This document shows positions 248-36,194 of a stretch of DNA of 40,937 nucleotides, piece after piece; positions within the stretch are counted from its first letter, which is position 1; each line of letters opens with the position of its first letter. Made by a program: the position numbers and the translations under genes. The stretch covers positions 1 through 40,937 of the forward strand of contig JAFUQS010000093.1 in the NCBI GenBank assembly GCA_017472225.1. The letters run 5' to 3'. Under the pieces are notes generated by a model. That model had not been told where the DNA came from. It did not search any database and was given only the letters and a program-made list of their open reading frames with translations. Origin of the DNA: Clostridia bacterium. Lineage in GTDB: Bacteria; Bacillota; Clostridia; Oscillospirales; Acutalibacteraceae.

Positions 248-280
248 CCTGACTACTGTCTACTGACTACTGACTACTAA
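248..280 (+). repeat. 7-base tandem array (CTGACTA type)
   Basis: This is a run of CTGACTA/CTGTCTA units immediately after LR copy 1. The whole 33-base stretch is identical to 30113-30145, next to the four-helix-bundle gene 30 kb away. On the strand of the neighbouring ceramidase-like gene it reads as GTCAGTA units downstream of the gene. Confidence 0.85.
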
Positions 281-4340: not shown

Positions 4341-5000
4341 ATGAAAGGTGTGTTACAACTCATGCGAAGCTATCAGAAAGAGCTTGATAAGCTGATTGAA
4401 GAAAATCAAAGGGCGGGAGCTGTCCCCACCTTGCTTCTTCATGCCTGCTGTGCTCCTTGCAGCAGTTATTGTCTTGAATACCTTTCAGAATATTTCCGTA
4501 TAACTGTTTTTTTCTATAACCCCAACATCTGGCCTGTTGAGGAATATTCTCACAGAGCGAATGAAATCAGAAGGTTGATTTCGGAAAGCACTTATAAAAA
4601 TGAAGTGTCGCTCATTGAGGGAGAAGCCGAACCGGAGGAATTCTATTCCTGTGTCCGTGGGCTTGAGAAGGAAAGGGAAGGCGGAGCAAGGTGCTTTGCC
4701 TGCTATGAGCTGCGGCTTCGGAAAACGGCTCAGCTTGCAAAGAAGATGGGCTTTGACTATTTCACAACCACCCTTTCAATAAGTCCCCTAAAAAATGCGG
4801 CAAAGATAAATGAAATCGGCGAAAGACTTGCCGATGAATATGAAACAGCACATCTGCCTTCGGATTTTAAAAAGAAAAACGGCTATAAAAGGTCAATCGA
4901 GCTTTCAAGGGAGCATGATTTATACAGACAGAATTACTGTGGCTGTGTTTATTCTGTCAGGAATTCATCGGAAGCAGAGGCCGTGGGCAGTAGACAGTAG
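4341..5000 (+). CDS. queH: Epoxyqueuosine reductase QueH
   Basis: This is a 219-residue member of the QueH (former DUF208) family, the non-homologous replacement of QueG. It reduces epoxyqueuosine to queuosine in tRNA. Visible metal-site cysteines are LLHACCAPC (32-40), RCFAC (117-121) and CGC (200-202), all at expected places. The start at 4341 has AAGGAAG about 8 bases upstream; the ATG at 4362 is an alternative. The last codons and the TAG stop lie inside a 7-base repeat array (4987-5019), so the C-terminal GSRQ is repeat-encoded and the ancestral end has probably been replaced. No other queuosine genes are nearby. Confidence 0.9.
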   Translation: MKGVLQLMRSYQKELDKLIEENQRAGAVPTLLLHACCAPCSSYCLEYLSEYFRITVFFYNPNIWPVEEYSHRANEIRRLISESTYKNEVSLIEGEAEPEEFYSCVRGLEKEREGGARCFACYELRLRKTAQLAKKMGFDYFTTTLSISPLKNAAKINEIGERLADEYETAHLPSDFKKKNGYKRSIELSREHDLYRQNYCGCVYSVRNSSEAEAVGSRQ

Positions 5001-5019
5001 ACAGTAGTCAGTAGTCAGG
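4987..5019 (+). repeat. 7-base tandem array (GTCAGTA orientation) overlapping queH stop
   Basis: GTAGACA/GTAGTCA units begin within the last queH codons, supply its TAG stop and end in GTCAGG. It is inverted relative to the next array at 5184-5220, enclosing about 165 bases. Confidence 0.85.
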
Positions 5020-5079
5020 AAAAACCACTTTAGCGGTGGAGGAGTCTGTTTTTATAAGAATATAGTACAAGTCCGTAGG

Positions 5080-5104
5080 GGCGCCCATTGGGCGTCCTTT
5101 TTTA
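5080..5104 (+). terminator. GC-rich palindrome with T-run (likely queH terminator)
   Basis: GGGCGCCCA (5080-5088) pairs with TGGGCGTCC (5090-5098) with one G-T pair, followed by TTTTTTA. The GGCGTCCTTTTTT end also occurs (reverse complement) at 281-293 beside array 1, so this is itself a repeated piece. Confidence 0.6.
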
Positions 5105-5183
5105 TCGGACAAAGTCATATTATCAACCTTTGAATGTTAATTTTTTACCGCCAAGGTGTCATCTATCCTGTGCCGTAGGCACC

Positions 5184-5220
5184 CTGACTACTGACTACTG
5201 ACTCCTGACTACTGTCTACT
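5184..5220 (+). repeat. 7-base tandem array (CTGACTA orientation)
   Basis: CTGACTACTGACTACTG-type units immediately precede LR copy 2. The preceding bases (5164-5181) resemble, as reverse complement, the sequence beside array 1 at 285-302. Confidence 0.85.
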
Positions 5221-5720
5221 CAAAATGTATTTACCTTCGCTTTTATATGCCGTGGTGCTAAATGGTAAGGCTTCATCTGTTCCTCTGACTCCGCTCGCTC
5301 GAGCCGCTTGGGCTCTTACTTTTGTCGGTTGTGACAAAAGTAAGCAAAAGCACGCTGGCGGATTAACTTCCGCAAGAACTAAAAATACCGAGTCAGGCTT
5401 ATACTACCCTTTACTCGGTATTCTTTTCTGCTCACCGTGGATAAAGAAAAAAGAAATTTTCTTATCGGTATTTTTAGATTGCTCCGTTCTGCTGTACCAC
5501 GGCTCGGTTGCCGAACAGCTCTGATTAAAACAACGCTCAATAAAATGAGCCGCTTGGTTTAATTTGTTCCGTAAGGTATGCTATTGTCTATTTTATTTGT
5601 CTGCCTTTCCACAGCGTGTAGTCCGACAGTCGCTCCCGCTACAATCTGCTTTCTGAAAGAGAATTCCTTTTTACGTTGTATTTCTTGCTTTTTTACTCTC
5701 ACTTATTGTTTTATCTTTTC
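5221..5720 (-). repeat. Long dispersed repeat LR, copy 2 (full length)
   Basis: This copy of about 500 bp is inverted relative to copies 1 and 3 and can be matched to copy 3 along its whole length. It is bounded on both sides by 7-base arrays. It carries the same GACAAAAGTAAG and ATACCGAGT hairpins, a third CGCTCA..TGAGC stem, and an open frame of about 99 codons on the plus strand. That frame is judged non-coding because differences from copy 3 mostly change amino acids. It fills the convergent spacer between queH and glgA. Confidence 0.85.
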
Positions 5721-5838
5721 CTGACTCCTGCCTACTGACTACTGTCTACTGACCCCTGTCTACTGACTACTATCTACTGTCTACTGATCCCTGACTACTG
5801 ACTACTAGCTACTGTCTACTGATCCCGGGCTACTGACC
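5721..5838 (+). repeat. Longest 7-base tandem array in the window
   Basis: About 16 degenerate units of CTGACTA, CTGTCTA, CTATCTA, CTGATCC and similar. It follows LR copy 2 directly and lies downstream of glgA, where it reads as GTCAGTA on the glgA strand. Confidence 0.85.
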
Positions 5839-5920: not shown

Positions 5921-7348
5921 TTATTCTTTTATAACCTGCTTATACATTTTGATGTATTCATTTGCACTCTTGCCCCAGCTGAAATCACATTCCATGGCAC
6001 GGATAACAAGAGTATCCCAATAATCTCTGTTCCAATATGCATCAAGGCTTCTTCTGATTGCGCCGAGCATATCGTGAGCGTTATAGGTTTTGAAGGTGAA
6101 GCCGTTGCCTTCACCGTCGCCGCTGTCTGTGATGGAGTCACGAAGACCGCCTGTTTCACGGACAATGGGTACTGTGCCGTAGCGGAGAGCCACCATCTGT
6201 GAAAGTCCGCAGGGCTCACTCTTTGAAGGCATGAGGAAAAGGTCTGCACCGGCATAAATCTTTCTTGCAAGTGAGGGGACAAAGCCGATTCGGATTGCAA
6301 GCTTATCCGGATACTTATCTGCCATTTCCTTGAAGAAGTTTTCATACTGCCAATCACCTGAGCCTACAATTGCAACCTGAACATCGGTTGTGGCAAGAAG
6401 CTCATCAAGAATACCCTTGATAAGGTCAAGACCCTTATGAGAAACAAGGCGTGAAACAAGGCCGATGATGGGCACATCCTCTCTCTGGGGAAGTCCCATG
6501 TTTTCCTGAAGCTGCTTTTTACATTCAGCCTTACCCTTTTTCACATCCTTGACTGTGTAATTCACAGCGATGTTGGGGTCGGTTTCGGGGTTATAGTTGA
6601 TAATGTCAATACCGTTGAGAATACCCTGAAGCTTCCACTGACGCTCCTTGAGTATAGTATCAAGACCGTGGCTGTACCAGGGGTCAAGAATTTCATTTGC
6701 ATATGAAGGTGAAACGGTTGTGACCTTATTTGAACACTCAATTGCACCCTTCATGAAATTCACATCACCGTCATATTCAACAATTGAGGTGTCGGCAGGA
6801 TTAAGACCGATAACATCATTGACAAGCTCCATGCCGTAGGTACCCTGATACTGAATATTGTGAATGGTGAAAACAGTTTTGATGCCCTGATACCAGGGGT
6901 CCTTTGAATAGAAGGTTGAATAGAAAACAGGTGTGAGAGCTGTCTGCCAGTCATTGCAGTGGATGATATCCGGCTTGAAATCCACAACGGGGAGAATTTC
7001 AAGGGCTGCACGGGCAAAGAAGGTGAAGCGCTCTGCATCATCATAATGACCGTAGATTGTGTCTCTTTTGAAATAATACTGATTATCAATGAGATAATAG
7101 ATTACACCCTCATGCTTTGCCTGGAAAATACCGCAATACTGACGTCTCCATGCAACGGGTACGGAAATGTTTGTGACAAATGTCATTTTGCTTTTAAGCT
7201 CTTCCTTGATTGTGTCATACATAGGCATAACAACACGGCAGCCGATGAGTCTTTTTCTGAGTGCCTGAGGCAATGAGCCTGCAACATCACCCAAGCCGCC
7301 ACTCGCCATGAAGGGGAGAGCTTCACTTGTTACATATAATACTTTCAT
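5921..7348 (-). CDS. glgA: Glycogen synthase (ADP-glucose, GT5)
   Basis: This 475-residue enzyme transfers glucose from ADP-glucose to a growing alpha-1,4-glucan. It starts MKVLYVTSEALPF with AAAGGA upstream; the open frame continues 37 codons further up but that part is unlike GlgA. The N-terminal SGGLGDVAGSLP block binds ADP-glucose, with Ser where many family members have Lys. The C-terminal SEPCGLSQMVALRYG and RETGGLRD blocks are typical GT-B fold motifs. It is the last gene of glgBCDA and is separated from glgD by a structured spacer (7349-7506). Confidence 0.95.
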   Translation of the reverse strand: MKVLYVTSEALPFMASGGLGDVAGSLPQALRKRLIGCRVVMPMYDTIKEELKSKMTFVTNISVPVAWRRQYCGIFQAKHEGVIYYLIDNQYYFKRDTIYGHYDDAERFTFFARAALEILPVVDFKPDIIHCNDWQTALTPVFYSTFYSKDPWYQGIKTVFTIHNIQYQGTYGMELVNDVIGLNPADTSIVEYDGDVNFMKGAIECSNKVTTVSPSYANEILDPWYSHGLDTILKERQWKLQGILNGIDIINYNPETDPNIAVNYTVKDVKKGKAECKKQLQENMGLPQREDVPIIGLVSRLVSHKGLDLIKGILDELLATTDVQVAIVGSGDWQYENFFKEMADKYPDKLAIRIGFVPSLARKIYAGADLFLMPSKSEPCGLSQMVALRYGTVPIVRETGGLRDSITDSGDGEGNGFTFKTYNAHDMLGAIRRSLDAYWNRDYWDTLVIRAMECDFSWGKSANEYIKMYKQVIKE

Positions 7349-29400: not shown

Positions 29401-29673
29401 TTATTTCTGTGTCTGATATCTCAGCTCTTCCGTTCGTTTAAGAAGGGTTGAGGTTGATATCTGTGAAAGGTAGACTATATTCTGACCGGATTTGTCATGG
29501 CAGACAATGAAGCTTTTCGGAAGCTCATTTGAAACTTCAACAACTCTGCCTTCCTTCTGGGCTTTTGAAAGGTAATCCCTTGTTTTTTTTGCAACAGTCG
29601 TATTATCAAGGTCGAATATACCTATTATTTCATCAAAGGTTATAACTGTGCTCTGACCTAAATGGAGGTACAT
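29401..29673 (-). CDS. remB: RemB/DUF370-like regulatory protein
   Basis: This 90-residue protein begins MYLHLGQSTVITFDEIIGIFDLDNT, the DUF370/Rem family start. In B. subtilis remB (yaaB) lies between recF and gyrB; the Rem family regulates matrix and osmotic genes by DNA binding. The same place here strongly supports the call. AAAGGAGAAAGTACA precedes ATG. It was probably adjacent to recF before the four-helix-bundle cassette came between them. Confidence 0.88.
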   Translation of the reverse strand: MYLHLGQSTVITFDEIIGIFDLDNTTVAKKTRDYLSKAQKEGRVVEVSNELPKSFIVCHDKSGQNIVYLSQISTSTLLKRTEELRYQTQK

Positions 29674-29704
29674 TGTACTTTCTCCTTTTTCGTTTATTTT
29701 TTGA

Positions 29705-29733
29705 GTAGTCAGTAGTCAGTAGGCAGTAGACAG
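29705..29733 (+). repeat. Left inverted heptamer array of the four-helix cassette
   Basis: Four GTAGTCA-type units. Its reverse complement matches 30114-30142 at 27 of 29 positions, so the two arrays form inverted repeats around the gene at 29709-30086. The gene's final codons and TGA stop lie in this array. Confidence 0.88.
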
Positions 29734-30086
29734 TTTTTTTCTTTATTGATAAGTGCATTTAATATTTTAGCTATTTCTTGACATAAAGAAAAAGATTTTT
29801 CTGCTTGTTTCTGAGTTAAATATTTTTGTCTTATACAAATGTATAACTGAGTTTCTATTTCTGCCCTTGAACTTCTTGCTACCGAAAGGAATTGTATATA
29901 CTCTTTTTTAGAATTTCTTTCATATCCTTCTGCTATATTCGATGGAATTGAAACAACAGCTCTTCTCATTTGATCTGAAAGCGCATAAATTTCTTCTTTT
30001 GGTAAAAATTTTACAAGGTTATATATCTCATCTACTAAATCCATTGATTTCTGCCAGACAATCAAATCTCTGTAACCGTTATTCAT
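29709..30086 (-). CDS. Four-helix-bundle protein (23S rRNA IVS / bAvd-like)
   Basis: This protein of about 125 residues belongs to the S23/four-helix-bundle family: YRDLIVWQKSMDLVDEIYNL, LSDQMRRAVVSIPSNIAEGYER and IQFLSVARSSRAEIETQLYI are its three diagnostic blocks. Members are encoded in 23S rRNA intervening sequences and resemble the Avd protein of diversity-generating retroelements; their role is unclear and probably involves nucleic-acid binding. The ATG at 30084-30086 is preferred because GGGTGA lies 8 bases upstream; a GTG four codons earlier belongs to that site. The C-terminal CLLPTDY is encoded by the flanking repeat. It is visibly more A+T-rich than neighbours and interrupts recF-remB. 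Both points suggest acquisition. Confidence 0.88.
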   Translation of the reverse strand: MNNGYRDLIVWQKSMDLVDEIYNLVKFLPKEEIYALSDQMRRAVVSIPSNIAEGYERNSKKEYIQFLSVARSSRAEIETQLYICIRQKYLTQKQAEKSFSLCQEIAKILNALINKEKNCLLPTDY

Positions 30087-30112
30087 TATCAAAATCACCC
30101 ATTTATCAAATT

Positions 30113-30145
30113 CCTGACTACTGTCTACTGACTACTGACTACTAA
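30113..30145 (+). repeat. Right inverted heptamer array of the four-helix cassette
   Basis: CTGACTA/CTGTCTA units. The array is identical over 33 bases to 248-280. It ends exactly at the recF stop codon (TGA at 30146-30148). Confidence 0.88.
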
Positions 30146-31237
30146 TCACAAGCAGGCGCCGTTTTTAACCTGAAAGCTTTTGCCGAATTTCAGATTTTTA
30201 ACCGCAGTCGGGTCACAGCAGGTGATGAATACCTGCCAATCCTTTATATGATTAAGAATGTAGTTCTGTCTGCCTGTATCAAGCTCACTCATAACATCGT
30301 CAAGAAGTGCAACGGGCTGCTCGTCTGAAAAGTTTTTGATAACTGCCGCCTCACCTAATTTTAAAGCAAGGGCTGCCGACCTTTGCTGACCCTGTGAGCC
30401 GTAGGTTCTTGCGGGTAAGGAGTCAATTTTTATGCTGAGGTCATCTCTGTGCGGTCCCACAGATGTAAAGCCTGTTATAAGGTCATTTTTTCGTGACTGA
30501 TAAAGCTGATTTTTCATGTTTTCATATAATTCCTGCTTATCGTCGCCGTAAACAACGGTCTGCTGATTATATGCAATTTTCAGCTTTTCTCTGTTTTGTG
30601 AAAGTCCGGAATAAATTTCATCGGTATAAAGGGAAAGCTTGTTTATATATCCGATTCTCTGGCGGATGATTTCCGATGCAAAAAAGGCAATTCTGTCCTC
30701 CCACACATCAAGAGTATCATATAATTCAGAATGAAACTGAATATCCTTGAGAAGAATATTTCTTTGTGCTATCGCCTTGTTATACTGCGAAAGAGTCACA
30801 CCGTATTTCGGTTTAAGCTGACTTATTGCAATATCAAGAAAGCGTCTTCTTTCATAAGGTCCGTCCTTAACAAGTGAAAGGTGGTCCGGAGAAAAAACAA
30901 CGGCAAGGAATTCACCCATAATCTGTGAAGCTCCCTTCATTTTAACGCCGTTAAGGATAAACCTTCTGCCCTCACCGATTTCAAGGGAAGCATTCTGCTG
31001 CCTGTCTGCGGCAAAAAAGTCCATATAAAGGTTAGCTTTATTTTTATTAAAGCCAATTAGCTCACTGTCCTTTGAGCTGCGGAAGGAACGGCAGCCTGTG
31101 AAAAGCCATATGCTTTCAAGAAGGTTGGTTTTTCCCTGTGCATTTTCGCCGTAAATAATGTTCACACCCTCGCAAGGATCCAGATAAACATATTCTATAT
31201 TGCGGAAATTTTTAACTTCAAGATGCTCAACATTCAT
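30146..31237 (-). CDS. recF: DNA replication and repair protein RecF
   Basis: This 363-residue ABC-type ATPase, an SMC relative, loads RecA at gaps with RecO and RecR. The Walker A is GENAQGKTNLLESIW (about 30-44), the signature SQGQQRSAALALKLGEA, and Walker B PVALLDDVMSELD. It is followed at once by the cassette array. The upstream gene is yaaA, 15 bases away. The length and C-terminus look complete. Confidence 0.96.
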   Translation of the reverse strand: MNVEHLEVKNFRNIEYVYLDPCEGVNIIYGENAQGKTNLLESIWLFTGCRSFRSSKDSELIGFNKNKANLYMDFFAADRQQNASLEIGEGRRFILNGVKMKGASQIMGEFLAVVFSPDHLSLVKDGPYERRRFLDIAISQLKPKYGVTLSQYNKAIAQRNILLKDIQFHSELYDTLDVWEDRIAFFASEIIRQRIGYINKLSLYTDEIYSGLSQNREKLKIAYNQQTVVYGDDKQELYENMKNQLYQSRKNDLITGFTSVGPHRDDLSIKIDSLPARTYGSQGQQRSAALALKLGEAAVIKNFSDEQPVALLDDVMSELDTGRQNYILNHIKDWQVFITCCDPTAVKNLKFGKSFQVKNGACL

Positions 31238-36140: not shown

Positions 36141-36194
36141 GCAGGAATCAGTAGTCAGTAGTCAGGAGACAGTAGGCAGTAGTCAGTAGTTAGG
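36136..36194 (+). repeat. 7-base tandem array starting at nth stop
   Basis: About eight GTAGTCA, GTAGGCA, GGAGACA and similar units, starting at the nth TAG stop codon and running into LR copy 3. Confidence 0.85.

Follow-up and report, generated by a model that had tools for sequence, protein, structure and literature searches.

The window analysed in this study is a whole stretch of 40,937 nucleotides from a member of the Clostridia (Acutalibacteraceae), in which a small gene of the 23S rRNA intervening-sequence protein family, here abbreviated as IVP, lies between recF and remB and is enclosed by two tandem arrays of seven-base units. The gene, its flanks and the other arrays considered below are listed with their window coordinates.

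29709..30098, minus strand: IVP/S23 four-helix-bundle gene, an ORF of 129 amino acids with a GTG start; its terminal residues and stop codon lie inside the left array
29704..29734, minus strand: downstream (3') heptamer array of 31 bases, with its core on the plus strand
30114..30143, minus strand: upstream (5') heptamer array of 30 bases, its first base 2 past the recF stop
30146..31237, minus strand: recF, upstream flank of the insertion, present at 29 of 30 remB loci
29401..29673, minus strand: remB, downstream flank of the insertion, present in 31 of 34 genomes
249..278, plus strand: gene-free array (no IVP) with the unit of the window cassette, a 30-mer identical to 30114-30143
4979..5220, no strand assigned: inverted array pair (4979-5018 and 5184-5220) enclosing about 165 bases without a listed gene
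5719..5821, no strand assigned: two arrays in the same direction, adjoining a multicopy non-coding repeat
36142..36193, no strand assigned: single array, adjoining a multicopy non-coding repeat

The reading frame, which contains an in-frame ATG four codons past the GTG start, matches the profile PF05635 (23S_rRNA_IVP / S23 protein) with an E-value of 8.8e-41 and 138.9 bits as opposed to a cut-off of 33.8. The protein is an up-down four-helix bundle like the solved structures 2gsc and 2rld, and the profile match bears out the four-helix identity proposed in an earlier, sequence-only reading of the window. The inverted repeat described there around the gene was reproduced by sequence comparison, 29705-29733 and the reverse-complemented 30114-30142 agreeing in 27 of 29 bases, and its placement, with one array at the recF stop and the other containing the IVP stop codon, was found as described. 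The right array is indeed identical to a distant copy in the window, over 34 bases (247-280) and not the 33 first given. The pattern CTGACTACTGACTA, with at most two mismatches, occurs 29 times in the window as opposed to 0.13 times expected from shuffles, and CTGNCTACTGNCTA occurs 265 times in the assembly as opposed to none for the reversed control pattern. Tandem seven-base units are thus present in many copies in the intergenic DNA of this genome, in the manner of STRR repeats, with these 265 pattern matches and 44 arrays in 303 kb. In the computed fold of the cassette RNA the arrays are paired (z=-4.25), and the complementary ends enclose the ORF as in a 23S rRNA intervening sequence. The cassette lies between recF and remB and not within a 23S rRNA gene; no Rfam match was obtained in the window, including for group I and group II intron cores at the gathering threshold.

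To place the insertion in the context of the genus, remB was located in 31 of the 34 genomes, the window's own counted; 30 loci were taken, 29 recF-remB intervals were readable, and the array units at the junctions were read by eye. The empty site that the sequence-only reading had looked to in relatives was found, as the IVP gene is missing from 26 of the 29 readable junctions, in 22 of which the gap between recF and remB is 8-74 bases. The longest of these 22 short junctions, in genome G018, contains an ATTCCGA array. An IVP gene is present at the junction in the window's genome (G000) and in G015, and a remnant in G003, each between different inverted heptamer arrays. The G015 protein shares 74% identity with the window IVP in the aligned part and its gene has arrays of a different unit, CTACTTA, and G003 retains only the initial part of the IVP between GGGCCGA/GGGCCAA arrays. 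Inserts of about 270-290 bases without IVP, bounded by inverted heptamer arrays of three further units, occupy the junctions of G016, G007 and G009, and in G031 the insert is 692 bases long and has arrays of two kinds. Insertions have thus reached the recF-remB junction repeatedly, and what bounds them are heptamer arrays of changing sequence.

Throughout the 34 genomes, 105 IVP matches above the family cut-off were obtained, all of them located on the DNA examined, and tandem arrays with a period of 1 to 25 were called in 1.17 Mb. Within 300 bp of an IVP gene, 107 of 123 tandem arrays have a period of 7 and five more a period of 14, and the density of period-7 arrays is 11.4 per 10 kb near IVP genes as opposed to 0.73 farther off, which is an enrichment of about 15-fold. 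No arrays were called when 40 of the 98 loci were base-shuffled. Counted per gene, the full set of features (an array on the 5' side, one on the 3' side and an inverted match) is present in 42 of the 105, at least one of the three in 65 and none in 40; with one shuffle per flank of all 105 IVPs, the thresholds were never reached. In random stretches, 8 arrays were found in 400 kb of genomes with IVP (in four of nine) as opposed to 1 in 365 kb of genomes without (in one of eleven), a small sample that is suggestive only and from which one of 20 stretches, being nonexistent, was dropped before the count.

The presence of arrays follows lineage. In a tree of 101 of the 105 proteins, four shorter than 85 residues being left out, it requires 5 changes as opposed to about 31 for shuffled labels. 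An array above threshold is lacking at 44 of the 105 IVPs, 40 of which are in the tree and 37 of these in a single clade of 38 genes. The lineages with arrays flanking the gene, named here type I, comprise 54 genes, of which 52 have at least one feature (array or inverted match), 41 both arrays, and 40 both arrays together with the inverted match. In a clade of nine genes, the readable arms lie mostly upstream of the gene, both arms included, so that a layout with the gene in the loop is not essential. In the 38-gene clade both arms are upstream and consist mostly of hairpins, between which linkers of 7 to 8 bases such as ATGAAAT recur, with the inverted ATTTCAT in the opposite arm; measured by script, linker length spreads from 3 to 8 and is not sharply 7, possibly owing to pairing of the A-T ends. 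Loci of this clade (e.g., L002, L003, L083, L086, L091) often follow directly after a tRNA gene and terminator.

At the 46 type I loci with resolved orientation, both neighbours run in the direction of the IVP gene in 31, both in the opposite direction in 3, and the arrangement is mixed in 12. Measured in 46 arrays, the distance from the end of the 5' array to the start of the conserved domain is 5 to 139 bases. This position, together with the pairing of the arrays in the transcript, would suit a function at the RNA level for which mobility is not the purpose, such as a self-regulating or RNase III-processed operon spacer in which IVP binds its own 5' leader as TRAP does. The Coxiella intervening sequence, with complementary ends cut by RNase III and heptamers ahead of the S23p ORF in the part of the article consulted (PMC4990558), can be read in the same way. 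However, empty sites and the occurrence of one cassette type at unrelated sites, detailed below, show spread, and gene-free arrays in trans would be left unexplained, which makes a purely RNA-level role rather unlikely.

The 112 arrays near the IVP genes of the genus comprise 51 different units (up to rotation), and 59 of them are 30-33 bases long, corresponding to about five cores. The same length peak is found far from any IVP (46 of 79 arrays) and in other phyla (32 of 67), and in the window's own genome 14 of 44 arrays are 30-31 bases long. When the units are aligned in phase, they share an A-purine-T core (ART) with 3.89 bits as opposed to at most 3.10 in 20 shuffles, a figure to be read with the provisos that the core was picked after the arrays had been seen and that related arrays and cassettes are not independent. 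Of the 112 arrays, 49 have five as their longest run of ART at a spacing of exactly 7; in 16 arrays this run is four, in 4 it is six, and in the others it is either shorter than four (40 arrays) or longer than six (3 arrays). Longer arrays, of up to 165 bases in other phyla and more than 200 in the cyanobacterial locus L312, go against a strict rule of five. Both arrays of the cassette G022:C146 (L065, L168), which are among the 3 with runs longer than six, are doubled, with ten and eleven cores. Near-identical copies also differ in unit number, with five left units in L320 and three in L329, so slippage or unequal exchange does occur; slippage alone would not yield a length peak above the detection limit. 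The idea that the seven-base unit serves to provide a stop codon in all three frames was rejected as not general, because only 26 of the 51 units contain a stop in the sense strand of the 5' array.

The unit and the protein change together. For type I pairs from different genomes (51 genes), protein distance correlates with unit mismatch (Mantel r=0.63, reached in 0 of 2000 permutations), with 0.8 mismatches at protein distances below 0.2 and 3.6 at distances above 0.65, and between diverged IVPs that share a genome the units show a mean of 3.2 mismatches (35 pairs). No significant correlation was obtained in the other phyla (r=0.06, 274 of 2000), in which almost all protein distances are similar. 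The arrays far from any IVP comprise 57 distinct units, 37 of which have at most one mismatch to an IVP unit of their own genome; the mean mismatch to these is 1.30 as opposed to 2.03 to the units of other genomes, a value that none of 500 draws matched. In the genomes compared, these distances show that the unit is typical of the cassette lineage and not of the site, and that gene-free arrays tend to carry the IVP unit of their own genome, a sign of recognition or descent in trans. For the ends of any element, inheritance of the unit together with the gene would be expected, and binding is not shown by this alone.

About twenty arrays in the window's genome adjoin a non-coding repeat of more than 200 bases (AGGAATTCTCTTTC..GTAGCGGGAGCGACTGTCGGAC), for example those at 5719-5821 and 36142-36193 of the window and at the loci L292-L311, and several contigs of this genome end in or near the repeat. 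Its copies are about 87-97% alike among the pairs listed. The outer sides of many arrays in this genome are also alike, with 58 similar pairs among 43, which means that the arrays lie inside larger repeats as well and are not always repeat ends.

Beyond the genus, a scan of named genomes led to 80 IVP loci that were kept, which according to the record titles span Bacillota/Clostridia, Treponema, several proteobacterial classes, Acidobacteria, Planctomycetaceae, Kiritimatiellae, Gloeocapsopsis, Flavobacterium and other Bacteroidetes, and CPR groups. Within 300 bp of these genes there are 107 arrays, among them 67 with a period of 7, 13 of 8, 4 of 9, 8 of 14 and 4 of 16. At least one of the three features is present at 65 of the 80 loci as opposed to 18 of 264 control placements in the same DNA, and all three at 26 loci as opposed to 1 of 264 placements; 15 loci have none. 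Units of eight bases were seen at loci of Nitrospirae, Bacteroidetes and Kapaibacterium (L199, L217, L222, L228, L244, L245) and units of nine bases at L249, and the 5' array of L199 contains five AGG cores at a spacing of 8. At a locus from Phycisphaerae (L235), TAACTGA heptamers lie upstream of the gene, at a distance of about 210 bases from the IVP match at 6001. No IVP match was obtained in phages.

Plasmids with IVP are represented by 24 records, of which 12 were chosen by hand and not at random, and other regions of three of the 24 were added later. For ten cyanobacterial plasmid IVP genes (L312-L321), arrays above threshold are present on both sides in eight, seven of these pairs being inverted and one (L321) direct; in L316 the units are octamers and only one side exceeds the threshold, and L314 has short inverted heptamers under the threshold, recognised by eye. 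Three of the ten copies are antisense to both neighbours. The cassettes L312, L316 and L321 lie within CRISPR operons (cas6/cas4 twice, cas10/cmr3 once). The question of whether arrays accompany the family elsewhere can thus be answered, as they are common beside IVP genes in the genus, in other phyla and on these plasmids. A vertically inherited operon gene that lies by chance beside polymerase-slippage repeats would agree with the shift in unit number between L320 and L329, but it is refuted by the empty junctions, the roughly 15-fold period-7 enrichment beside IVP, the features in other phyla and the unit-protein correlation, and given the inverted match and the peaked length in addition, it must be regarded as extremely improbable.

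Traces of movement come from the tree and from pairs of occupied and empty sites. The sister of the window IVP is G018_C108, which occupies a different site and has the same AGTAGTC unit (support 98/92), and the IVP of G015, located at the same site as that of the window, falls outside this pair. At the serS-glyA site, the gene names of which were read from flanking peptides, IVP is present in five genomes and belongs to two subclades shared with IVPs not flagged there. Plasmid C of Trichormus variabilis ATCC 29413 contains a cassette where Nostoc linckia NIES-25 has an intact junction that is 428 bases shorter in a backbone of 97.6% identity; GTAAT stands on either side of the insert (by eye), and Nostoc C052 has a decayed remnant at this site. 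Aulosira carries, at a different site, a cassette that is 82% identical to the Trichormus one along 416 bases, and their alignment stops at the outer array ends. Nostoc ATCC 53789 and two related cassette-free plasmids form a second, less clean pair with TTCTA on either side (by eye). Four more cassette-free junctions have backbones of 91.3 to 98.7% identity, including the CRISPR operons cas6-cas4 and cas10-cmr3, with exact ends blurred by other differences, and two of the seven plasmid comparisons (Calothrix) lack the right anchor, were read by eye and are not clean. Such direct repeats were seen at these two sites only, and for the window copy there is no empty relative that is close enough. 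The comparisons show that IVP is missing at the site in most junctions and that related cassettes end at the arrays, and on this sequence basis the mobility of the family is well supported. The cassette with heptamer arrays as its ends, which the sequence-only reading had inferred to be mobile or RNA-processed, therefore gains support as a mobile one from the empty sites, the arrays beside the family elsewhere and the homology that stops at the outer array ends.

A cassette without a transposase, flanked by short direct repeats at two insertions, could also be a MITE-like element, whose arrays would be ordinary terminal inverted repeats acted on in trans by a host transposase, with IVP as cargo that does something else and the ends shaped by seven-base slippage; the multicopy gene-free repeats that adjoin the same arrays are in line with this. 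We regard this explanation as fairly unlikely, since a transposase substrate has fixed ends, whereas here the unit differs wholly between cassettes and length and core stay constant, since array length peaks without a fall-off, and since IVP occurs with arrays in many phyla. A Y1 transposase (PF01797) was matched in 7 of the 12 congeners searched and not in the window's genome, the draft of which is 91% complete.

With regard to the protein, both solved relatives, 2gsc and 2rld, consist of five chains, and Xcc0516 is stated to be a homopentamer in the portion of the article available, which cites Lin 2006 and describes IVP proteins as having no known function (PMC4990558). Six polar residues (Q43, R46, S50, N54, E57 and E80 in window numbering) are 93-100% conserved over 159 diverged IVPs, a degree of conservation that seems high for a simple scaffold and suggests that the ring has an activity of its own or that these residues form a fixed polar network. 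From the structure alignment, 14 of the 36 rows were left out after one was found to hold a stop. Considering all this, we judge it probable, at roughly 60%, that the recF-remB insert is a copy of a widespread array-bounded mobile element consisting of an IVP/S23 gene and inverted arrays of about five seven-base units, whose pentameric protein recognises the five cores on a single strand. The binding of the arrays by IVP and the mode of movement are what we infer. Like its solved relatives, IVP would assemble into a pentameric ring, in which every subunit would grip one core (ART in this genus) per seven nucleotides of single-stranded array. The ring could thereby mark the ends of the element, its own transcript, or gene-free copies in trans, and array and protein would change together because they are a recognition pair. 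A ring holding five cores of one strand is the most likely reading because the number, the spacing, the co-variation and the hairpins between the units of the sister clade fit a strand-wrapping protein, and because Avd, a related ring, acts within a particle of RNA and reverse transcriptase.

The likeness to Avd also raises the possibility of retro-mobility, with an Avd-like IVP ring presenting the cassette RNA to a reverse transcriptase. In the window, no reverse transcriptase lies beside the IVP gene, the neighbours being recF and remB. Among the 12 congeners searched, which are incomplete drafts, RVT_1 was found in only 4 and is missing from 8, including the IVP carriers G000, G003, G008, G009 and G031. 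As three of the ten cyanobacterial copies moreover run antisense to both neighbours, retro-mobility seems decidedly improbable compared with the element read by a single-strand ring, which remains our preferred reading.

The IVP family, the 23S intervening sequences with complementary ends and the intergenic heptamers are each already known separately. In the parts of the open-access literature consulted, no general link between IVP, S23 or four-helix proteins and heptamer arrays was found, the single Coxiella case being the nearest. Nor was a paper found there that joins IVP and heptamers in one element; the 23S intervening sequences may nonetheless turn out to be the earliest members of the class to have been described. 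A wider proposal, for which we put the odds at somewhat below even, is that IVP/S23 proteins are the missing partners of the seven-base tandem repeats found between the genes of many bacteria: a pentameric ring would read five cores at a spacing of seven nucleotides on one strand, protein and unit would co-evolve as a code, and the result would be a new mobile class with an array at each end and no transposase, in which the 23S rRNA intervening sequences are the rRNA-resident members. Tying IVP to the heptamers would give each a partner, and the heptamer puzzle would become directly testable with one purified protein and one series of oligonucleotides. It would also add a kind of mobile element with variable tandem arrays as ends and a ring protein of about 130 residues as its sole gene product, and if protein and unit do form a code, a programmable single-strand-binding ring would be conceivable.

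Several known systems resemble the cassette in part. TRAP is a symmetric ring that reads equally spaced NAG repeats on a single strand; the likeness concerns the proposed mode only and no homology is claimed, IVP being proposed to read five cores spaced by seven bases as opposed to the eleven triplets of TRAP. In REP/REPIN-RAYT systems, a small gene is accompanied by many gene-free repeats that are thought to be recognised in trans. The IVP cassettes share the small gene and the gene-free repeats, but no Y1 match is present in the window's draft genome, and the cassette ends are tandem arrays and not REP palindromes. Avd of the diversity-generating retroelements has a similar four-helix bundle (4dwl, 8ub7), and its homology to IVP is noted in the text available to us (PMC10053308). 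Unlike the cassette protein, Avd acts with a reverse transcriptase and a template repeat, and the window's draft genome gives no RVT_1 match.

The period of seven bases is shared with the intergenic heptamers of Xanthomonas (GGGAATC), Nostoc (GGGGAYT) and Beggiatoaceae (TAACTGA) and with the heptanucleotide sites of Geobacter. In the excerpts consulted, the Xanthomonas heptamer usually comes in four units and forms 70 or 75 convergent inverted pairs (PMC4692102), the Geobacter sites fall into classes of four and five tandem units (PMC2700814), and heptamers are called the most abundant intergenic tandem repeat, without known function (PMC6344855). No protein partner of these four heptamers is named in the portions of the literature examined. 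The Beggiatoaceae unit, as reported in the accessible part of PMC4679880, is the one that was seen at the Phycisphaerae IVP locus L235. The closest counterpart is the 23S rRNA intervening sequence of Coxiella burnetii, for which the available text describes heptameric GACAGAT repeats before the ORF, in addition to the RNase III-cut ends mentioned above (PMC4990558). It has in common with the window cassette the protein family, an ORF between complementary ends and a sporadic distribution, whereas the window cassette is located in a protein operon and the arrays form full inverted end structures in many phyla.
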